A stretch of 64,000 nucleotides of DNA from Tepidimicrobium xylanilyticum (lineage in GTDB: Bacteria > Bacillota > Clostridia > Tissierellales > Tepidimicrobiaceae). The notes below the pieces were generated by a model, which searched no databases, was not told where the DNA came from, and saw only the letters and a program-made list of their open reading frames with translations. Both the position numbers and the translations under genes were made by a program. This document shows, piece by piece, positions 53,729 through 64,000 of this stretch (positions within the stretch are counted from its first letter, which is position 1; each line of letters begins with the position of its first letter). The stretch lies in assembly GCF_900106765.1 (NCBI RefSeq), contig NZ_FNNG01000007.1, positions 76,999 to 140,998 on the forward strand, written 5' to 3'.

Positions 53729-54931
53729 CTAAATAAATGTATATAAAACATAGGCTGCCCATTTTACAGCTTTTAAATATCCTTCAAATAACTTATTAGA
53801 ATCTATCTCTATTATATCAGCATATTTATGTACATCTAGCCAATTTGCCTGTTCATATGCAGTAATCAACTTGAGAATTGGCACCAGATCTCCTTTTTGA
53901 TAAACCAAAGAATCATAAATGGCATCCGATATTAATATCTTCTCTAATGCTTCTTTCATTGATTGGTCAAGCATTGCATCTAATACACTAAATAGACACA
54001 TGGTATAAACTTCGTCTCTTCGATTCCTGTATTTACTATGAATAGCTATGTGTTCACCAAATTTTGCTCGAACTAAGGACATTCTAATCAGTTCAACCGG
54101 CTTATCTTTTGAAATGCTTTGGAGCATTAACACATGGATCCATCTTTCCAATTCTATAAGCCCCATATATTGTAACGCTAATTTTACTGAATTGAATGGG
54201 TCTTTTCTTCTATTGCTCATAACCCGCATTACACGATAAGAAAGATTTACATCTGATACAATAATATTTGCTATCCTGTTAAAAGAAGGCTCTTCCTTTC
54301 TTAATTCTTGTAAAATTCTAGAGTATTGGATCTTTGAATAATTTTTATCATTTGATTTTGCAACAATTTTGGGTTTACTAAAGAAAAAGCCCTGAAACAA
54401 TTGGAATCCCATGTCTACAGCCTTACGGAAATCCTCTTCTGTCTCAACCTTTTCTGCAAGAATAGTTATATGTTGTGATAGTAATTCTTTAACATCGTAC
54501 TTAATTGTATCAAGAGGGGTATTTATGATATCAATTTTTATGATATCCGCAATAGGTATAATTGAACTAAAAACGTCTTTTTTAAAATCATCTAAAGCTA
54601 TTTTATATCCCATTCCCTTTAAATATTTTAATCTTTCTATTAGTGCTTCATCTATTTTTACGGTTTCTAGCACTTCTATTACTAATGAGTCGGAAGGAAT
54701 CAATCCAATGGTATCTGACATAATGAAATCATAATCAAAGTTAACAAACGCTTTCCCATTTCCCACAATCTGGTTTAATCCCTGTTCAAAAAGACCTCCA
54801 AAAACACTAGCTGTAGCAGAAGTTGATGAGACATTTGCAAATTCCTCCGAATTTAAATCTACCCTATATAGAAGCTCATATCCATAAATTTTCATAGATT
54901 TGTTGAATATTGGTTGTCGTGCAATAAACAT
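53729..54931 (-). CDS. EAL-HDOD signalling protein (YuxH/CdgJ-like)
   Basis: A 400-residue cytoplasmic protein. The N-terminal half is an EAL-type domain (IFNKSMKIYGYELLYRVDLN, IEVLETVKID, ALDDFKKDVF, IIKIDIINT, AEKVETEEDF, FQGFFFSKPKI). The second half is an HDOD domain (RIANIIVSDVNLSYRVMRVM and later helices). The EAL signature is EVLE and several metal ligands are conserved, but YuxH-type proteins are usually catalytically weak or inactive on c-di-GMP, so an effector role is likely. RBS AAGGAAG before ATG 54931. Single gene. Confidence 0.9.
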   Translation of the reverse strand: MFIARQPIFNKSMKIYGYELLYRVDLNSEEFANVSSTSATASVFGGLFEQGLNQIVGNGKAFVNFDYDFIMSDTIGLIPSDSLVIEVLETVKIDEALIERLKYLKGMGYKIALDDFKKDVFSSIIPIADIIKIDIINTPLDTIKYDVKELLSQHITILAEKVETEEDFRKAVDMGFQLFQGFFFSKPKIVAKSNDKNYSKIQYSRILQELRKEEPSFNRIANIIVSDVNLSYRVMRVMSNRRKDPFNSVKLALQYMGLIELERWIHVLMLQSISKDKPVELIRMSLVRAKFGEHIAIHSKYRNRRDEVYTMCLFSVLDAMLDQSMKEALEKILISDAIYDSLVYQKGDLVPILKLITAYEQANWLDVHKYADIIEIDSNKLFEGYLKAVKWAAYVLYTFI

Positions 54932-55174
54932 TAGACATCTTCCTTCTCATCATTTATAAGGCAAAATTTCGATATATCTATGACTTTTCCATTTGAATAT
55001 TAGCCAACTTTGTTTATTTTAAAACAAACCAAAATATAATATTGTTCATTTATTATAACTAAAAAACTTACTTTATTTTATTATATACTACAAATAAAAT
55101 TAGTCCATCATTTTTTCTACTAATCAACAAAATCCTACTGATACTGATGCAATAAAATCAAATACTAAAGCAGA
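54932..55174. other. AT-rich spacer upstream of the EAL-HDOD gene
   Basis: About 240 bases without coding sign, holding the leftward promoter of the EAL-HDOD gene. Merges on the right into the ABC exporter relic. Confidence 0.4.
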
Positions 55175-55438
55175 GCAATACTAAAGGATAATCCTATAAT
55201 TTTACTTGATGAGGCTACAGCATCCCTTAATATTGAAAACTAGCTTAAAATGAAACAAGCAATAGTAAACCCCTAAATGTTGAAAAAACATAATAATGAT
55301 TGCTCAACCCTTTCAGCAGTCAAAAATGCAGGTAAGATAATTGTACTTGACCACGGCCAAGTAATAGAACAAGGAACTCATGAAGAACTATTGGAAAAAA
55401 AATACTATTCCATGTGGAATGCGAGAAAACAAGATTAA
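55175..55438 (+). pseudogene. C-terminal relic of an ABC exporter
   Basis: The frame reads AILKDNPIILLDEATASLNI (Walker B of an MsbA-type ATPase), then two in-frame stops, then LSAVKNAGKIIVLDHGQVIE and QGTHEELLEKKYYSMWNARK, the usual end of such exporters. The membrane domain, Walker A and signature are gone, and the H-loop region is damaged. A terminator at 55468 still follows. Confidence 0.85.
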
Positions 55439-55467
55439 GTGTTATATAAATTTGCAGTTCTATAACA

Positions 55468-55500
55468 AATGTTGGGGTAGAAATAATATCCCCAACATTT
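55468..55500 (+). terminator. Terminator after the ABC exporter relic
   Basis: AAATGTTGGGG (55468-55478) pairs with CCCCAACATTT (55490-55500). Confidence 0.75.
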
Positions 55501-55668
55501 ATTTTCTCAAAATATAACACAAAAGGAAAATTGAAAAGAATAGAATTATCCAAAGTATGTCTAGACTTGGTAAATTGAAATGTTTTACGCTAAAATCTTT
55601 AAATCACAAGAAGATTTAAAGGAAAAATAGTTAAATACATTAAATATTACAATAAGTTCGAAATTCTC

Positions 55669-56460
55669 TTACTCATTAACAGCATCAGGAGATTCTGAAT
55701 TAATATCTAATGACAATTCAAATAATGCATTGACCCCTTCATATTCTTCGTTTCTTCTTATTATTCCTGTCTTCTCATCATATGTATATGCACTTGAATC
55801 ATAGAAGGTTGTATCGCTGACACATATATACAATCCATTATCTGCAAATTCCTCAATATTATTACATTCAGCGATTCTATATATAATACCATCCTCTACA
55901 ATTTCAGTATAACCTCCACGCATTGTTATAATATTGAACTCCAACGGATTTTTACCTTTAATTAATGGAGAAACAAAGAACGAAATCTCACCATATTCAG
56001 AGTCTGTAGTATTTGGCATTGGAGTTCCATCTACATTTTCTATAGCTACAACAATATAGGTTCTATTATTTTGCACTATATCATTATGAGCAAATACATA
56101 ATCAGTTAAGTTTTCTCCTGATACAACTCCTAACAATGTTATCTTATAGTTTCCGTATATTTGACTTTCATTAATAGTAATTACATCATCACTTAAAAAA
56201 GCATCAGCTAATTTTTTATCTTCTATAAATTCTGCTACCTGTGATGGTGAAAGATATCTCCAAGCTGCATATATCGAAATACTACCAATAACAAAAATTA
56301 AGGCTACAACCAACGCCGCTGCAGGAATTCTTCTTTTTTTAAATCTTTTCATCTGCTCTGCCTCCCTTATTTGACTTATAATTTTTTCATTTAACCTTCT
56401 ATCTGGCTCTTCAGTTAAAATAAAAGCTTCTTTTAAAATTTCATCTATATTACTCTTCAA
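55669..56460 (-). CDS. Anti-sigma factor-like membrane protein of the ECF pair
   Basis: A 263-residue protein: a cytoplasmic helical N terminus (1-45) that can bind the sigma factor, one membrane segment (IPAAALVVALIFVIGSISIY, about 45-64), and an extracytoplasmic beta-rich domain (about 70-255, resembling DUF4179-type regions). Layout and position downstream of an ECF sigma gene mark it as its anti-sigma factor. Starts at TTG 56460, 8 bases after GGAGGTG, overlapping the sigma gene by 11 bases. The signal is presumably an envelope stress, not identifiable here. Confidence 0.82.
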   Translation of the reverse strand: MKSNIDEILKEAFILTEEPDRRLNEKIISQIREAEQMKRFKKRRIPAAALVVALIFVIGSISIYAAWRYLSPSQVAEFIEDKKLADAFLSDDVITINESQIYGNYKITLLGVVSGENLTDYVFAHNDIVQNNRTYIVVAIENVDGTPMPNTTDSEYGEISFFVSPLIKGKNPLEFNIITMRGGYTEIVEDGIIYRIAECNNIEEFADNGLYICVSDTTFYDSSAYTYDEKTGIIRRNEEYEGVNALFELSLDINSESPDAVNE

Positions 56461-56980
56461 AATAAATCACCTCCAGTTTATCCTTTAATATCTTTCTTGC
56501 TTTGTGCAATCTACTTTTAACAGTTCCTTCAGGAATCTTCAAAAGTTTTGCTATTTCATTTAATGAAAGATCTTCCATATAATAAAGATAAATAGGAATG
56601 CGATATTTATCATTTAATTTTTTTACTTCCTGTTCAACTATATTTTTTTCTTCATTAGCCAATACTCGTTCTTCTAAAAAAGATGTTACACCTGCGACAT
56701 TATTTTTTTGCTTTTCCTCTATCCATCTTTCCATCCTAGCTATTCGTTGCCTCCAGGCATACTTTCTTTTCTTGTTCTTCCAAATTCTTAATGTTATCGA
56801 TAATAAATAACTCTTTGGATTTTGATCCATATGGATATCTTTCATTATTTCCACTGCTTTCAAAAAAGTATCCTGATACAAATCCTCCGCTTCCGTAAGA
56901 TTACATGTCAACTGTTTACAGAAAATATATATATCTTTACCATATGTATTGATACATACCTCTAATTCTTCTATGCTCAT
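56450..56980 (-). CDS. ECF-type RNA polymerase sigma factor
   Basis: A 176-residue sigma-70-like factor. Region 2 reads AEDLYQDTFLKAVEIMKDIH and NPKSYLLSITLRIWKNKKRK (about 28-75); region 4 reads YRIPIYLYYMEDLSLNEIAK and LLKIPEGTVKSRLHKARKIL (about 123-168), which binds the -35 element. No extra domain. It is co-transcribed with the membrane anti-sigma downstream. TGTTACAATG near 57045 could be an autoregulated -35 region. RBS GGAGGTG before ATG 56980. Confidence 0.9.
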   Translation of the reverse strand: MSIEELEVCINTYGKDIYIFCKQLTCNLTEAEDLYQDTFLKAVEIMKDIHMDQNPKSYLLSITLRIWKNKKRKYAWRQRIARMERWIEEKQKNNVAGVTSFLEERVLANEEKNIVEQEVKKLNDKYRIPIYLYYMEDLSLNEIAKLLKIPEGTVKSRLHKARKILKDKLEVIYFEE

Positions 56981-57831
56981 TAATACTCACCTCCATAATA
57001 TAGTCTTCTCTTCACACGTTTTTTGCTCTACACTTATACATTGTAACAATTATAAAATAGGTTCATTAAAATAGTCTAATTTTTTCCTTGTCAGGATAAG
57101 CACCTTGACCATGACTAATTCGGTTTTTAATTAGTTATAGTTCAACTTAACATATGGGGTAAGAAATACTGGAAATCATTCATGAAGGAAATACTGCTTA
57201 CATGCTATTCATAAGTAAAAAAGTTCCATCTTAAAGAAAGTATTTTGGCCTCAGCGATGGGGATATCAATTTATAATATTTAATCAACGGTAGCTTTGCC
57301 ATTCGTTATAAAAAGCAAAAGCATTTCAAATTTGCACTTATATCCTCATTTTTTAAGTATAATGTCGACATCGTATTGTAAAAGATAAAATAAGGTATAT
57401 TGCTACGAAAGAATTATTAACGCCATTGACAATGTTATAGTATTAAAATGTTGAAAGACTAATTCAATTAAAAAAACAACTTGTATTATAATAAACAAGT
57501 TGTTTAAAACACATAAGATTTCAGCTAAATTTTACCTAACTCAATAATTAAGTAAATCCTCTTTTTAATAATTCAGTCATTCTATAGCAGCCATAGTATA
57601 ACTTCCCTGTTTCAATAATTATTAATATATTTTTCTCTATTTGCCTATTGTGAATTTGATAACCACATTTGTTAATTTCTCAACTTCATTTATATCTTCA
57701 ATTTTAAAACTTCTATTAATATTAAATAATGGGTAGATAAACTAAAACTAACAATTTGTCCCATTCTTTGTTCCTATGATGCTTCCAAAATCCATCCAAC
57801 AAACTTCTCTCCAAAACAATTCCCCATTCTA
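56981..57831. other. Gene-poor region between ECF sigma and the first RiPP maturase
   Basis: No intact gene. A hairpin AACAACTTGT/AACAAGTTGTT (57475-57504) could be a terminator. Leftward frames downstream of the maturase (for example SFKIEDINEVEKLTNVVIKF near 57650-57710 and ETGKLYYGCYRMTELLKRGF near 57560-57620) look like relics of one or two dead genes that once followed it. I recognise no family. Confidence 0.45.
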
Positions 57832-59181
57832 TCAATAGGCATTATTTACTGTTTCACTGCTTTTTTCCATAGCTTCTTCCATTTCTTTATAGAATAAAGG
57901 GAGCTCTTTATGCAAAATAGTTTTGATTGAATAACACATAGGTCTGAAAAAATCATCAGTTTCAGCTAATCCTAGTGGACAGCCTCCTCCACAAAGAAGA
58001 GAATATATACAATCTCTACATTCAGGTATTTTTTCTATATTACGGTTACGTATTGAGTTTTCCTTGAACTCAACTAAAGGATAATACTTTCCAACAGAAA
58101 AACGTTCTTTGCCAACACACCCCAAACATGGATAAATATCACCATAGGGATCAAACACCATACCATCAGAATGGGCATAGCAATAGGAATATAAAGGAAT
58201 TATGGGCCTGCCGTACACTAAGTGGTCCAGTATTGAATTTTTTTTAGTTATAAAGTTGTTTATTCTTTGCCTATCCTCGAACGAGTGCTTTGTATCCGAA
58301 CGATATACTTCAGTCAATATATCAATTCGTTCATCATGAGAGTCTTGAAGTAGTGTAGTCAATTCAAACGATAAATTGTCCTTATATCCTGAAAATCTGT
58401 CAAGCAGGTTTTCCCTTAAATCAATTCCGTTCTCATAATTGTTTTTGTCAAGATTCATTCTGATTCGAATATTTATCCCGCTTTCTAAACACCTTTCTAT
58501 ACCATCCATGATTTTTTTGTATGTAGGCTTTCCGTTAGCTAAAACTCTCCTGCTATTGTGAACCTTTTCGCTACCATCTAAAGTGATTAAAACTTGAGAA
58601 ATTTTTAGAGACAAAAGCAAATCAAGGAATTCTGTCAGATAATAACCATTGGTAAAAATTTGATATGTTTTATCGGGAGCTTTATTAAAAAGGTATTCCA
58701 AAGCAGGTCTTGTTTTTGGAAGCAACGGTTCTCCTCCAAAAAGGCATATAGCCTGCAAGCCCTCACCCGCCAGTTTTAAAGCTGCATCAATTTGTTCAGG
58801 AGTTATAACCTCTTTTTTAAAATAAGCATCCCCCTCAAAGCAATAAGGACATCTAAAGTTACAGTCATAAGTCATAACAAAAGCAATAATTCTTTGTTCT
58901 TTTTGCCTTTGAATGTGGTCATTACGCAATACTTTTAAGATTTCATTCTTTATAGCTATTTCCTCTTCGTCATTATTTACTAGATATCCCCTAGATTGGA
59001 GATTACTCAATAACTCTACCTCCAAATCATTTTCTGGTACAATTTCTTCACAAGCCTGCCACTTGGACAAGGTTTTGTAAATAGGGGCATCGATTTCATC
59101 CATAGTACCTGTTAAAGAGTTTATCAGCAGTTTTTTGTCATCGTGTATGTCTACAAATATCATGTGTTTAATTAATTTCAT
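57832..59181 (-). CDS. Radical SAM/SPASM peptide maturase (cassette 1)
   Basis: A 449-residue enzyme. Residues 1-90 form an N-terminal peptide-binding region; Cys107, Cys111 and Cys114 (YDCNFRCPYC) hold the SAM [4Fe-4S] cluster; CLFGGEPLLP and FTNGYYL are further rSAM motifs. The C terminus is a SPASM domain with two auxiliary clusters (YPCLGCVGKE, CRDCIYSLLCGGGC, and a last Cys near 423). This architecture makes thioether, C-C or similar links in ribosomal peptides. The small Cys-rich precursor gene lies 294 bases upstream on the same strand, with a hairpin between. It recalls CcpM/CLI_3235-type maturases, from memory only. Confidence 0.88.
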   Translation of the reverse strand: MKLIKHMIFVDIHDDKKLLINSLTGTMDEIDAPIYKTLSKWQACEEIVPENDLEVELLSNLQSRGYLVNNDEEEIAIKNEILKVLRNDHIQRQKEQRIIAFVMTYDCNFRCPYCFEGDAYFKKEVITPEQIDAALKLAGEGLQAICLFGGEPLLPKTRPALEYLFNKAPDKTYQIFTNGYYLTEFLDLLLSLKISQVLITLDGSEKVHNSRRVLANGKPTYKKIMDGIERCLESGINIRIRMNLDKNNYENGIDLRENLLDRFSGYKDNLSFELTTLLQDSHDERIDILTEVYRSDTKHSFEDRQRINNFITKKNSILDHLVYGRPIIPLYSYCYAHSDGMVFDPYGDIYPCLGCVGKERFSVGKYYPLVEFKENSIRNRNIEKIPECRDCIYSLLCGGGCPLGLAETDDFFRPMCYSIKTILHKELPLFYKEMEEAMEKSSETVNNAY

Positions 59182-59357
59182 TATTCTCCCTCCCTATAGC
59201 TGATTGGTTTGCTAATGGAGTCCATGGCTTCTCAGCAATGGCCTAACTAATGCCCATTATCTCCACCAAGTTTGTAGTACACACAAAATTTCCCAACAAA
59301 TCACACTTCTAAAAATTATAATAAGCTAAATACCTAGCAAAATGTTAACTGTGATAA

Positions 59358-59404
59358 AAACCCTTCTATCACTGATATTTTAGATTGTTGTGATAGAAGG
59401 GTTT
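59358..59404 (-). terminator. Attenuator hairpin between precursor 1 and maturase 1
   Basis: AAACCCTTCTATCAC (59358-59372) pairs perfectly with GTGATAGAAGGGTTT (59390-59404). The leftward reading continues with T residues, so a fraction of transcripts should stop here, giving more precursor than enzyme. Confidence 0.8.
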
Positions 59405-59474
59405 GGTTTTATAGCTTAGCTTTTTTCGAGTTACACATATTAGTAAACGAGTAAGCTAAACTACTTTACTAATA

Positions 59475-59600
59475 TTAGCAAGCACAACACCAGTGGTTTC
59501 CAATCCCTATCATTGGTCCCATTGCACTATCTAGGTTTGACTTCTCATTTGCTATATCTTGTAAATTCCAACCATTTACAATAATTGGCTTCATTTTCAT
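59475..59600 (-). CDS. Cys-rich RiPP precursor peptide (cassette 1)
   Basis: A 41-residue peptide with excellent RBS (AGGAGG 8 bases before ATG 59600). N-terminal leader: MKMKPIIVNGWNLQDIANEK. C-terminal core ends IGNHWCCAC, with three Cys and Trp packed at the very end. The stop immediately follows the last Cys. No Gly-Gly leader cut site or lasso-type motif. Placement upstream of a SPASM radical SAM enzyme, with a hairpin between, is typical of RiPP precursors. The chemical product (thioether or other) is unknown. A second ATG (59594) is in frame. Confidence 0.75.
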   Translation of the reverse strand: MKMKPIIVNGWNLQDIANEKSNLDSAMGPMIGIGNHWCCAC

Positions 59601-59884
59601 TATATTTTCACCTCCTAGCATGGCGTAAAGTTCCGCCTTCTTTTTGAATTATACCATGGTATATGTAAATTATAGTAAATTGTTTTGCTAAAGTCAAGTT
59701 ATTCCATTAATTCCTTTTATCGCATTAATTTACATTTTCTTTCATTTCCTAACGTTTTTTATAAACTCCTAAATACCTCTAAATACTAGGCAAAACCTTG
59801 GACCACTTTATATTAATCTGATTCCTGCAATTTGTAAATTGGTATTACAGTTTTCGAAATACTGGGTCAAACCTATTATTCTCT

Positions 59885-60006
59885 TCAAAATCGGACAGAA
59901 AAACTTGTTTTTCTGAATCTCATCTGAATTATTCTATCCGTTATTTTACTAACCATATCAGCAGGCAATTCAATCCCATGAATACTGTCCCGAATTCCCT
60001 TATAGC
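59885..60006 (-). mobile_element. IS256-family transposase relic
   Basis: The leftward frame reads KGIRDSIHGIELPADMVSKI and TDRIIQM, which corresponds to the IS256 transposase block RDI.DHI..IYGIE.S..MVSKITDRI with a small deletion, then runs off into a wrong frame and a stop at 59885. Only this piece of the mutator-type transposase remains, and hairpin-repeat copy 3 lies immediately upstream in the same orientation. Confidence 0.7.
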
Positions 60007-60027
60007 ATCCTCCTTAATGCATTAAAT

Positions 60028-60080
60028 AATTCTCCTTTCTGGTTTAAATCCTATTTTGATACTTACCAGAAAAGAGAGTT
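60028..60080. repeat. Dispersed 53-bp hairpin repeat, copy 3
   Basis: Arms AATTCTCCTTTCTGG and CCAGAAAAGAGAGTT pair; differences from copy 1 in the stem (CCAG/CTAG here CTGG/CCAG) are partly compensatory, which supports selection for folding. In the leftward reading AAAGGAG precedes an ATG and then the IS256 relic. Confidence 0.7.
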
Positions 60081-60562
60081 CTATCTTCTAAAATCACAAA
60101 TTATTTCACACTACCTTCTATTATTATGGAAACCGTCTTTTGTACTGCTTCTTTATAATCTGTATTCAAATATCTTGTTAATTGAGTTTTTTTTTACTAT
60201 AACATATACTCACTCTTACAAACTTGTCTTCTGTTCTATTTCTTGTTAAGTAAAATACAATTAAAATGCAGAATATTGTAGATATTTCGGGAGATTTTAA
60301 TGTTAAATTTACCCAATTTTTATGATATACTTTGGTATAAGCAATAGAGTAAATATATTTACTATTTTATATTTTATATTTCAAATTGCTTGCTAGACCC
60401 TTAAAAAAAGGGGAAAAAGAGGTTAAGGATTGAAGTGTTAAGCCAATTGAATATTGGATTTATTTTTAAAGAAAACACTAAAATAAACAGTTAATTTGAT
60501 AATTAATCTTCTAGGATTCATAAATATTAATTAATATATTTTTAAGAAAGGAGGTTCAAAAA

Positions 60563-60685
60563 ATGAAAATCAAGGCATTAATACCAGCTATCTTAAAAAG
60601 GAAAGTTGTGCATAGTAATATTTCATTATCCTGTTATTATGCAGGATGTGGGTCTGCAGATAGTTGGCCATTGCATGTGGACTGA
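60563..60685 (+). CDS. RiPP precursor peptide (cassette 2)
   Basis: A 40-residue peptide with RBS AAAGGAGG 8 bases before ATG. The leader is basic (MKIKALIPAILKRKVVHSN), and the likely core is ISLSCYYAGCGSADSWPLHV ending in Asp, with two Cys, two Tyr and one Trp. No similarity to the cassette 1 precursor beyond size. Followed by a perfect hairpin, a SPASM radical SAM enzyme and an ABC exporter, a full RiPP gene order. The product and its modification are unknown. Confidence 0.75.
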   Translation: MKIKALIPAILKRKVVHSNISLSCYYAGCGSADSWPLHVD

Positions 60686-60690
60686 AATTT

Positions 60691-60718
60691 GTACAGTAAC
60701 CCAAGCGGGTTACTGTAC
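60691..60718 (+). terminator. Attenuator hairpin between precursor 2 and maturase 2
   Basis: GTACAGTAACCC (60691-60702) pairs perfectly with GGGTTACTGTAC (60707-60718) around the tetraloop AAGC, five bases after the precursor stop. No strong T-run follows, so it may limit read-through or protect the precursor mRNA end. Confidence 0.8.
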
Positions 60719-60753
60719 GCTAGAATAAATTATAAGTAATGTAGGAGGAAAAA

Positions 60754-62013
60754 ATGTTTCATATTTTTGAGAATAAAGATAAAAAGTATCTATATTTAAC
60801 ATCATATAAGCAATTCTTTGAAATTGATGAGAATACATATCTGATTTTAAAATTTAGCAATGATAATACCGAAATTAATAGAATTTTGAAAGTATATGAG
60901 CAACACGTTAATGAAGAAGATTATTTTGTAAAAAATGATGTTGAAGAATTAAGATATGGCTTGTTTTTATGCATTTCAAATGTATGCAATGCTAATTGTT
61001 CATATTGTTTTGCAAACAAAGGAAATTATGGCAAAGATGAAGGAATAATGAGTATGCAGATCGCTAAAATAGCAATAGATTTCTTTATAAATAAGGTGCC
61101 AACAAATGGGCAAGCCAATATTATTTTTTTCGGTGGAGAACCCCTGATGGCTTATAATCAGCTGGTTTCAACATGTGAGTATATAAAAGAAAGATATACT
61201 AATGAAAATATTCAACTTCACCTAGTTACTAATGGTACGTTGTTAAATGAAAAAATTATTGATTATCTGGCTATGAATAATTTTAGTGTAGGACTTAGTA
61301 TTGATGGAAACGAAAAAGTTCAAAATGAACAACGGCCACTTAGAAATGGAATGAACTCATTTTTAGAAGCTACTAAACACCTAGATTACCTGTTAAAAAA
61401 AGTAAAATCTGTACATGCAAGGGGAACATATTCTAACTATAATAATTCATTAGTAGAAGCATATGATGCCTTGCTAAACCTCGGGTTTAGAGAAGTAAGC
61501 ATACCTCCAGATATTTTAAGCGATAATATGAATAAAAAAATCAATTTATTAGATGAAGAATTGGATAATTTGTACGATTATATTGTAGATTATATAAATA
61601 ATAATGATGATTTTCCTTTTGGTACTTTTATTGAACATATAAGAAGAATTTTTTTACCAAAAACGGATATAAAATATACCTGTGGCCTAGGGGAAGTAAT
61701 TTACTCTGTTGATATTTACGGAGATATTTATCCATGTCATCGTTTTTCATCAGAAAATAATTATAAGCTCGGCAATGTTATGGATCAAGAAAAGGTTAAA
61801 GTCTTTTCTTTTGTGACAGAAGAATGTAATAAATGCTGGAATCAATATACTTGTTCCCATGGCTGTTGTTATAACGACTATATATTGACGGATTCTCTCA
61901 ATAAAAAAAATCCATACTGGTGCGCTTATTCTAAAAAAATGACAGAATTATGTTTGGCTTTAATCCCAAAATTAAGCGAAGAACATTTAAAAAGGATATT
62001 GATGGTGCCATAG
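60754..62013 (+). CDS. Radical SAM/SPASM peptide maturase (cassette 2)
   Basis: A 419-residue enzyme with Cys78, Cys82 and Cys85 (VCNANCSYCF) as SAM-cluster ligands, IIFFGGEPLM and LVTNGTLL as rSAM motifs, and a SPASM C terminus (YPCHRFSSENNYKLGN, CNKCWNQYTCSHGCCYND, and later WCAYSKK). The 70 N-terminal residues form a recognition region distinct from that of the other maturase (no useful identity by eye). Presumably modifies the 40-residue precursor encoded 68 bases upstream. RBS AGGAGG. Followed by an ABC exporter 25 bases on. Confidence 0.9.
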   Translation: MFHIFENKDKKYLYLTSYKQFFEIDENTYLILKFSNDNTEINRILKVYEQHVNEEDYFVKNDVEELRYGLFLCISNVCNANCSYCFANKGNYGKDEGIMSMQIAKIAIDFFINKVPTNGQANIIFFGGEPLMAYNQLVSTCEYIKERYTNENIQLHLVTNGTLLNEKIIDYLAMNNFSVGLSIDGNEKVQNEQRPLRNGMNSFLEATKHLDYLLKKVKSVHARGTYSNYNNSLVEAYDALLNLGFREVSIPPDILSDNMNKKINLLDEELDNLYDYIVDYINNNDDFPFGTFIEHIRRIFLPKTDIKYTCGLGEVIYSVDIYGDIYPCHRFSSENNYKLGNVMDQEKVKVFSFVTEECNKCWNQYTCSHGCCYNDYILTDSLNKKNPYWCAYSKKMTELCLALIPKLSEEHLKRILMVP

Positions 62014-62038
62014 GAAAAAGGTATAAAGGAGGTACAAT

Positions 62039-64000
62039 ATGCTGGATAATTTAAAGAAATTTGTTTTTTTTATGGGAAAAAGATTAGAAGATAAAGATAA
62101 AAGAAAAATAGCTATTCTAGCTTTTATTGCACTTTTAACGAATATATTAATTGTACTGATTCCTTTAATGCAAAAGCATATTATTGATGATATAATCCAA
62201 AAACAAATGTATAAAAGTTCTATATTTACATTTTTAGGGTTAAGCATTTTATTATCAATAACAACATTAATAGAAATATTTTTGTTAAACAGCTTAAAAA
62301 TATCTATTCAAAAAAATATCACTATGGATATGTTAACGTCCATAGTAAAAAAGGAGAATAAAATAGTTCAAACCAGAGGATCAGGTGCATTTATGAGTAG
62401 TATTTTCGGTGATTCTGAACAGTTCAGTATGCTTTTAGAAACAAATTATTTTTTTAGTATAGGTATACTCATTAGTGCTATTATTACCATAATAATAACA
62501 CTTTCTTGGACTTGGAGCTTTCTTTTAATTATACTAACATCTTATATTATAATGGTCTTTGGTATAAAAGTGTGTACTCGGCTTTTCACACAAAATTTCG
62601 CATTGGCTAGAGAAGCGGTTTTTAAATTGAATCCAAAGGTTTTGGAATTTATAGAAAACAGAAAAACTATTATGAATTATAGCAATACACCTCAATACTT
62701 AAAAAAACTAGAGGATCTTATTGATAAAAGAGATGGATATTTTAAAAAAGCGTCTATCTATGATGCTTTAGGTAATACTATTATAGAAAATGTAAAAAAT
62801 ATTGCAATAACAATTTTTTTTATTGTATCAATGGTAGAAATATTAAATTCTAAACTAGATTTATCTTCTTTTATAGCCATGATATCGTATTTTAATATAG
62901 TATTTTTACCTGTATTAAACTTCAAGCAAATTTATGGGGCTTTAAATAAATTTCAAATGCTTTATTCAAGAACTTTCGATACACTTGATATACCTATTAA
63001 GGTTTGCTTACCGAGCAAAAATGAGTTGATAATTAAGAACATAGGTTTTTCATATGATGATGTAACAATTCTTAAAAACATAGATATAAAACTGGATAAG
63101 TTGTATGGAATTGTTGGCATGTCAGGAGAAGGAAAAACCACATTACTAAAATTATTAACTGGACAACTAACTCCAACAAAAGGAGAGATAATATACGGAA
63201 ATCTTGATATTTCCGATATACCTATGAATATGATTTATTCATGTCTTAGATATTATAGTCAAGATATAGAAGTTTTTGATGATGATCTTTTATATAATAT
63301 AACATTGGGTAAAGAAGGTATTTCAAAAAATGAATATTATGAAAAAATTGATATTTATAAGAAATTAATAAATGAAAGCTTAAATTGGCTTATTTCAAAG
63401 CAAAATCCCAATTTAAATGAAAATAAAAATTTTAAAACAATAATAAAAGAAATTTACAATTTAACAGAGGAAGAATGCAAAAACAAAAATATATTGAATG
63501 AAATAAAAAATAGATTAAAGCTTAGCAATTTGGCAGAAACCGTTGACTTTGTTTCTAAAGTATATGTATCAAAAAAATATTACATAAAAGAAAAATATAG
63601 ACTAATTTTATCAGACTTAAAATTAGATTATTTGAAAGGTAGGAACTTTGGGCAGAGGGGGAGCAATTTATCTGGCGGAGAAAAGAACAAAATTGCTTTA
63701 GCTCGCTTTCTATTGCCAGAAATTGATGTTCCCATCATTATTGATGAGCCGTTTACAAATCTAGATTCTATTTCTGAACAGGAAAATCTACAAGTCCTTA
63801 GAAAATATATAGCTGGTTCAAAAGGAATTATTGTATCTCATAAGTTAAATGTAATTAAATTACTATCTGACGAAATAATAGTTATTAATAATAGTGAAAT
63901 AGAGTCTAGAGGACTTCATGATGATTTATTAAACTCTTCATCCCTTTATACTGAATTATATGAAAATTTTTTGGAAAAGAAATCTGCCTTAAACGCATGA
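62039..64000 (+). CDS. ABC exporter with enlarged nucleotide-binding domain (cassette 2)
   Basis: A 653-residue fused exporter: six membrane helices (about 20-310), then an ATPase with Walker A GMSGEGKTT (about 360), Q-loop YSQDIEVFDD (about 405), signature NLSGGEKNKIALARF (about 542) and Walker B PIIIDEPFTNLD (about 564). The Q-loop to signature distance is about 136 residues against roughly 55-60 in MsbA-type exporters, so about 80 Lys/Glu/Asn-rich residues are inserted in the helical subdomain. No N-terminal C39 peptidase is present, so leader removal needs another protease. Likely exports the cassette 2 product. The TGA stop falls on the last base of the window. Confidence 0.9.
   Translation: MLDNLKKFVFFMGKRLEDKDKRKIAILAFIALLTNILIVLIPLMQKHIIDDIIQKQMYKSSIFTFLGLSILLSITTLIEIFLLNSLKISIQKNITMDMLTSIVKKENKIVQTRGSGAFMSSIFGDSEQFSMLLETNYFFSIGILISAIITIIITLSWTWSFLLIILTSYIIMVFGIKVCTRLFTQNFALAREAVFKLNPKVLEFIENRKTIMNYSNTPQYLKKLEDLIDKRDGYFKKASIYDALGNTIIENVKNIAITIFFIVSMVEILNSKLDLSSFIAMISYFNIVFLPVLNFKQIYGALNKFQMLYSRTFDTLDIPIKVCLPSKNELIIKNIGFSYDDVTILKNIDIKLDKLYGIVGMSGEGKTTLLKLLTGQLTPTKGEIIYGNLDISDIPMNMIYSCLRYYSQDIEVFDDDLLYNITLGKEGISKNEYYEKIDIYKKLINESLNWLISKQNPNLNENKNFKTIIKEIYNLTEEECKNKNILNEIKNRLKLSNLAETVDFVSKVYVSKKYYIKEKYRLILSDLKLDYLKGRNFGQRGSNLSGGEKNKIALARFLLPEIDVPIIIDEPFTNLDSISEQENLQVLRKYIAGSKGIIVSHKLNVIKLLSDEIIVINNSEIESRGLHDDLLNSSSLYTELYENFLEKKSALNA

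Follow-up and report, generated by a model that had tools for sequence, protein, structure and literature searches.

Described thioether-peptide systems and the cassette

Ranthipeptides are characterized by thioether bonds from a cysteine sulfur to a beta or gamma carbon. Among the described systems, PapA and PapB (freyrasin, Paenibacillus polymyxa) pair a precursor containing Cys-X3-Asp with a radical S-adenosylmethionine (SAM)/SPASM maturase, and PapB is reported to join cysteine to the beta carbon of aspartate within CX3D (PMC9413430). QhpD forms thioethers between cysteine and methylene carbons of aspartate or glutamate, according to the cited passages of PMC8172795, and its substrate QhpC is the gamma subunit of quinohemoprotein amine dehydrogenase. 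SCIFF peptides, which contain six cysteines in about 45 residues, are reported to be widespread in Clostridia (PMC8326336), and CteA/CteB is also a clostridial system. Here we describe three consecutive genes in a 64,000-nucleotide stretch of DNA from Tepidimicrobium xylanilyticum (the window; 76999-140998 of contig C7, in a 3.0-Mb genome of 38 contigs), which encode a precursor peptide, a radical SAM/SPASM maturase and an ATP-binding cassette (ABC) exporter. They belong to a real, rare and uncharacterised family of the ribosomally synthesized and post-translationally modified peptide (RiPP) type with a conserved three-gene architecture, which is a variant within the radical SAM thioether peptides and does not constitute a new kind.

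The precursor gene (60563-60685, 40 amino acids), a hairpin with a 13-bp stem and a 4-nt loop (60690-60719), the maturase gene (60754-62013, 419 amino acids) and the exporter gene (62039-64000, 653 amino acids) follow one another on the plus strand. The gaps are 68 nt between precursor and maturase and 25 nt between maturase and exporter. Open reading frames (ORFs), folding and domain searches therefore confirm the preliminary description, which had listed a two-cysteine precursor of 40 residues, a hairpin, a SPASM maturase and an ABC exporter in series with gaps of at most 68 nt. The precursor gene is preceded by AAAGGAGG (60547-60554, plus strand), a likely ribosome binding site read directly from the DNA. 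The exporter ORF stops exactly at the edge of the window (64000). Outside the window, a stable hairpin is found 3' of the exporter (locus L009, 3732-3769, z -6.1), and the next ORF longer than 100 amino acids has the opposite orientation; we therefore limit the cassette to these three genes. It had also been proposed that the cassette is unrelated to the divergent RiPP-type cassette at 57832-59600, and this was borne out, as the two maturases are 22% identical, their nearest models differ, and the three genes recur elsewhere as a triplet. Sequence comparison thus supports a self-contained RiPP cassette distinct from its neighbor.

Recurrence of the triplet and the conserved core

The window precursor alone was used as query against 249 genomes of the order (300 requested; threshold E <= 0.1). 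Six genomes were matched: its own, G074 (E 6.0e-9), G071 (taken to be Ezakiella peruensis; E 6.8e-8), G037 at two places, G106 and G076. A three-precursor profile matched 4 of 391 genomes of the class: two that had contributed to the profile, G423 (5.9e-6) and G348 (0.009). G423 was found though it lies outside the profile, and a maturase and an exporter again follow its precursor in order. The search for homologous triplets suggested in the preliminary description thus yielded three intact ones (G071, G074 and G423), making four in total with the same gene order and strand. G071 and G074 share a genus label, and G423 has a different family label. When the four precursors were run on 392 genomes of the order of G423 and 398 of the phylum, only weak matches in G792, G813, G987 and G1361 were found besides the members. 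The genome samples overlap.

The remaining matches were not counted as members. Those in G106 and G076 were judged to be chance after reading the loci, as was that in G348, where no radical SAM gene was recognised among ORFs of at least 100 amino acids. The G792 and G1361 loci were also read and lack the core, and the G813 and G987 matches are without the core motif; all four were taken as chance. In G037, the core occurs twice, each time in a frame with no ATG, GTG or TTG to start from; the genome yielded no maturase of the clade (best 213 bits) and was counted as carrying a broken version. The G037 copies belong to a duplicated module (locus L018, 7269-18026) in which a regulator is followed by a broken precursor copy, and one copy leads into a radical SAM and ABC cassette. 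We take the module genes to include an XRE-type regulator, a YcaO-like gene in one cassette, a halocin-like small protein after the other copy and an IS3-like transposase between them.

A profile of the four maturases scored 750, 744 and 705 bits in the window's own genome (G000), G071 and G074 among the 249 genomes of the order, scores raised by the presence of these three sequences in the profile, and 233 bits for the next best (at most 7 candidates scored per genome). All three high-scoring genomes carry an intact precursor. Within this sample, the precursor is conserved wherever the maturase is conserved, a point on which the preliminary description had staked its reading.

The core DNA pattern had no match in viral_contigs, and the maturase profile gave 2 matches among 92 stretches there, both weak, one of them (L122) without a precursor-like ORF among the plus-strand ORFs listed. 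Maturase searches of plasmids and phages returned 149 and 44 records, all below 60% identity, with 23-30% in the rows listed. The precursor had no phage match, and its single plasmid match (E 0.5) was attributed to chance. In genome_contigs, the window maturase as sole query gave 19 pattern matches and no relative. With three maturases, the scan gave at least 306 relatives among at least 592 pattern matches, of which 80 were kept, and absence there is no proof; the kept relatives include one orthologue (Ezakiella, 54%), followed by one at 31%. We inspected 61 of the 80 kept loci for nearby cysteine-rich ORFs, and 25 of those entered the maturase tree described below. Among open PMC papers, searches with core strings, with Ezakiella and radical SAM, and with radical SAM, RiPP and Peptoniphilus returned nothing.

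The precursor ORF translates to MKIKALIPAILKRKVVHSNISLSCYYAGCGSADSWPLHVD, which can be divided into a leader of about residues 1-22 and a conserved core, SCYYAGCGSADSWP (residues 23-36). The pattern C-X-Y-X-G-C-G-X-X-D-X-W-P is present in all four precursors, and Met1, Lys12, Cys24, Tyr26, Gly28, Cys29, Gly30, Asp33, Trp35 and Pro36 are invariant. Each core contains two cysteines and a single CX3D (Cys29-X3-Asp33), and the G074 leader has one extra cysteine. Over the six pairs, identity is 64-86% in the core, 19-43% in the leader, 39-54% in the maturase and 33-41% in the exporter. The ratio of nonsynonymous to synonymous differences (pN/pS) is 0.14-0.40 over the 14 core codons and 0.37-0.67 over 33 codons, below 1 in every pair. 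The C-X4-C-X3-D spacing alone is weak evidence, since, of 292 ORFs in the window that begin with ATG and encode 25 amino acids or more, two with at most 80 amino acids carry it, the precursor and another. The precursor matched no family in NCBIfam, Pfam or PHROGs, so the earlier statement that it resembles none known holds within these three databases.

Maturase, exporter and the predicted bond

The maturase was assigned by family models, conserved cysteines and a predicted structure. Its radical SAM domain exceeds the Pfam cut-off, and its SPASM domain scores 42.5 bits against a cut-off of 27. The CX3CX2C motif (C78, C82 and C85) and seven SPASM cysteines (C310, C328, C358, C361, C367, C371 and C390) are kept in all four maturases. 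The best NCBIfam models for the window maturase are PapB (225.7 bits, cut-off 340), Nif11-type (207.8) and SCIFF (205.7); the QhpD-type model scores 158.5, YhhB 89.3 and RumMC 72.0, and the protein is below the cut-off of every listed family (best 25 of 68). The SCIFF model (TIGR03974) gives 172.4-205.7 bits across the four maturases against a cut-off of 425. Pairwise, the window protein shares 42-54% identity with its three counterparts and no more than 30% with any of 26 further radical SAM maturases. A tree of 30 rows places the four maturases in a clade of their own (100/100) on a long stem, separate from three PapB rows (100/99) and from a 17-row clade (99/99) containing four SCIFF-labelled rows; the tree does not settle the branching order between the clades, and several rows have long branches.

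A predicted maturase model (predicted local distance difference test score 77.8, built from four sequences) aligns best to CteB among solved structures, with a Z score of 29.8 and a root-mean-square deviation of 3.9 over 366 residues (range 1-406). Residues 1-54 are predicted to form strands 2-6, 11-15 and 20-24 and helices 26-34 and 38-54, as expected of a RiPP recognition element (RRE). The CteB and TigE alignments of the whole-protein model begin at model residue 1, as judged by their end points only. These predictions suggest that the N-terminus of the maturase resembles the leader-binding, RRE-like domain of CteB.

The exporter contains ABC_membrane and ABC_tran domains over the Pfam cut-off, a fusion of membrane and ATPase domains also seen in MsbA-type and C39 peptide exporters. 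Unlike C39-containing exporters, the window protein has no C39 peptidase in Pfam, and the other three exporters align with it over the full length with no added N-terminal domain. Walker A and the signature motif are 174-184 amino acids apart in the four exporters and 94, 99 and 104 apart in control ABC proteins (three of five controls were measurable with the motif used), which indicates an insertion of roughly 70-90 amino acids in the ATPase domain. A profile of the insert matched 2 of 291 genomes of the class at E <= 1e-25, both of them triplet carriers whose sequences are contained in the profile (at most 13 candidates scored per genome). The AlphaFold model of the exporter was too poor for interpretation (predicted template modelling score 0.42).

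We propose that the RRE-like domain of the maturase would bind the precursor leader, and that a 5'-deoxyadenosyl radical would abstract hydrogen at the Asp33 beta carbon, the site at which the sulfur of Cys29 would then attach. This would give a ranthipeptide link, an S-Cbeta thioether of the PapB type spanning Cys29-X3-Asp33. Cys24 may form a second radical link, with Gly28 at X3, or may remain a thiol or a disulfide partner. The modified peptide would be exported by the ABC protein, and the leader would be removed by a protease encoded outside the three genes. The Cys29-Asp33 thioether is favoured because PapB and QhpD are among the nearest models and CX3D is invariant. We assign a probability of about 0.6 to this reading, that is, a ranthipeptide-type Cys29-Asp33 thioether followed by export, with the cross-link, leader cleavage and function all deduced. 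The cassette may serve as a compact system in which a short core can be tested, with a single enzyme, a single exporter and one Cys-Asp bond predicted, and as a small model for how a peptidase-less exporter might recognize a radical SAM product.

Several observations weigh against this assignment. For the four maturases, the PapB model (NF047865) gives scores of 225.7, 219.3, 225.8 and 220.7 bits, all below 340, while Paenibacillus and Fontibacillus relatives score 480.9 and 470.8 bits. The G074 maturase ranks Nif11-type first (231.7 bits versus 219.3 for PapB). With PapB below its cut-off and the Nif11-type and SCIFF scores close to it, the linkage is not readable from the family. Each precursor has one CX3D, in contrast to six in PapA, with the second cysteine placed in CX4C spacing, and no acidic residue lies at X3 from Cys24. 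Reports on PapB spacing conflict, with X0 to X6 accepted in one (PMC9413430) and X3 strict in the cited passages of the other (PMC8172795), so the CX3D motif is no proof. Furthermore, none of the three genes encodes a protease, and the conservation rests on four members only. The cassette also differs from SCIFF systems, as its core has two cysteines, its maturase lies outside the clade of SCIFF-labelled rows, and it is rare (3 of 249 genomes) where SCIFF is described as widespread. Unlike QhpC, its substrate would be a short exported peptide.

The same cassette could carry another bond, such as alpha-carbon (sactipeptide) links, for example Cys24-Gly28 and Cys29-Asp33, or a carbon-carbon link to Trp35 or Tyr26. 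The invariance of Tyr26, Gly28 and Trp35, the presence of an invariant residue at X3 from each cysteine (Gly28 and Asp33) and the failure of the maturase to reach any listed peptide-maturase cut-off are all compatible with such bonds. We nevertheless consider them rather unlikely, as non-alpha thioethers are reported for three of the nearest models, PapB, SCIFF and QhpD (PMC9413430, PMC8326336, PMC8172795), and the sactisynthase and cyclophane models (RumMC and YhhB) score lower. It is highly improbable that the small ORF is no gene, or is unrelated to the maturase and next to it by coincidence. The ORF is small and one other ORF of the window has its Cys/Asp spacing by chance, but four homologous small ORFs occupy the same position, pN/pS is below 1 in all six pairs, and precursor and maturase are found in the same genomes.

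A different question is what the product does. Because conservation is stronger in the core than in the enzymes, the product probably has a fixed, defined biological partner on which it acts as a signal or ligand; a strict core would fit a signal. A review lists a quorum-sensing role for SCIFF peptides (PMC8326336). With the same chemistry, the peptide could instead be a bacteriocin-like antibacterial whose ABC protein both exports it and protects the producer, a possibility that we hold to be appreciable though not the favoured one. Such a role would be consistent with the cassette having its own exporter, with none of the three genes being a separate immunity gene, with the patchy presence of the triplet in the order, with further RiPP-type loci nearby and with its low GC content (27.3%, against 32.2% in the window). 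Typical bacteriocins do not have a core more conserved than the enzymes, and here the core is the more conserved part across genomes with three family labels. A bolder proposal combines these elements: a macrocyclic, near-invariant peptide with its own maturase lineage and a matched exporter bearing an ATPase insertion of its own, passed between distant bacteria as a shared extracellular signal or ligand and not a bacteriocin. We regard this combination as improbable.

Hairpins, spread and genomic setting

The window hairpin has 13 uninterrupted pairs (one U-G) and a folding energy of -20.6 kcal/mol (z -3.5), and none of 200 shuffles was as stable. Hairpins between precursor and maturase occur in three of the four loci, the window, Ezakiella (z -8.3) and G423 (z -6.1), with differing sequences, and none was found in G074 (z +1.2). 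A T-rich tail follows only the G423 hairpin; the window hairpin is without a T-run, and a terminator scan found none in the window. We can offer a guess that the hairpin acts as an attenuator or stabilises the transcript, and it may allow more precursor than enzyme to be made. No Rfam family exceeded its gathering score in 54000-64000, where two weak microRNA matches were seen, and a promoter scan gave 3 sites compared with an average of 4.8 in shuffles. Upstream, a repeat at 60023-60132 (roughly 94-110 bp) has 11 further copies in the genome, some of them partial; for at least four copies the distance to a contig end is about 220-260 bp, and no Rfam family was over threshold in seven loci.

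The triplets occur in differing contexts: another RiPP-type cassette adjoins the one in the window, and other neighbors are found in G074 and Ezakiella. The triplet is absent from G213, the other genome of the genus, by precursor and maturase profile searches. In the maturase tree, the window sequence groups with G423 and not with the members of its own order; support for this is moderate (98/87), and the G423 branch is long. Together with the low GC content, these observations suggest horizontal transfer of the cassette, as far as sequence can tell. A search with flanking DNA in eight genomes of the family defined no empty site. The G074 triplet is preceded by what we take to be a ribosomal protein gene. 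Directly upstream of the Ezakiella triplet lies a gene pair (locus L019, 6561-8348) that could be a regulator or a leader protease. This pair presumably encodes a BlaI-like regulator and an M56-like metalloprotease; it was not seen at the window or G074, and the G423 contig begins just upstream of its triplet.

The preliminary description had also suggested a hot spot for peptide genes, which was not upheld. The genome holds nine intact SPASM genes and one broken one. Two of the intact genes are in this region, while three lie together on contig C3 (170955-174544), so that by counts only, with no statistical test, a special property of the region is not supported. The C3 cluster (locus L118, 3854-10462, corresponding to C3 170853-177461) consists of three tandem SPASM radical SAM genes, an ABC exporter and a 53-residue ORF (L118 5319-5480, minus strand) that could be a precursor. 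The broken SPASM radical SAM gene, also on C3 (locus L119, 3643-4754), is in pieces, and some 3.5 kb away lies what is presumably an IS21-like transposase pair.

The neighboring divergent cassette (57832-59600, minus strand) comprises a precursor ORF (59475-59600) ending in NHWCCAC and a radical SAM maturase (57832-59181), whose nearest models are CefB, TIGR04463 and Clo7bot, each below cut-off. Fragments of ABC exporter genes flank the RiPP region on both sides (55277-55438 in the window and L009 6989-7778) and are perhaps leftovers of earlier cassettes. Elsewhere, a single stretch of the conjugative plasmid pAPRE01 of Anaerococcus prevotii (locus L124) combines ABC genes and a radical SAM gene with four genes annotated as class III lanthipeptide genes.

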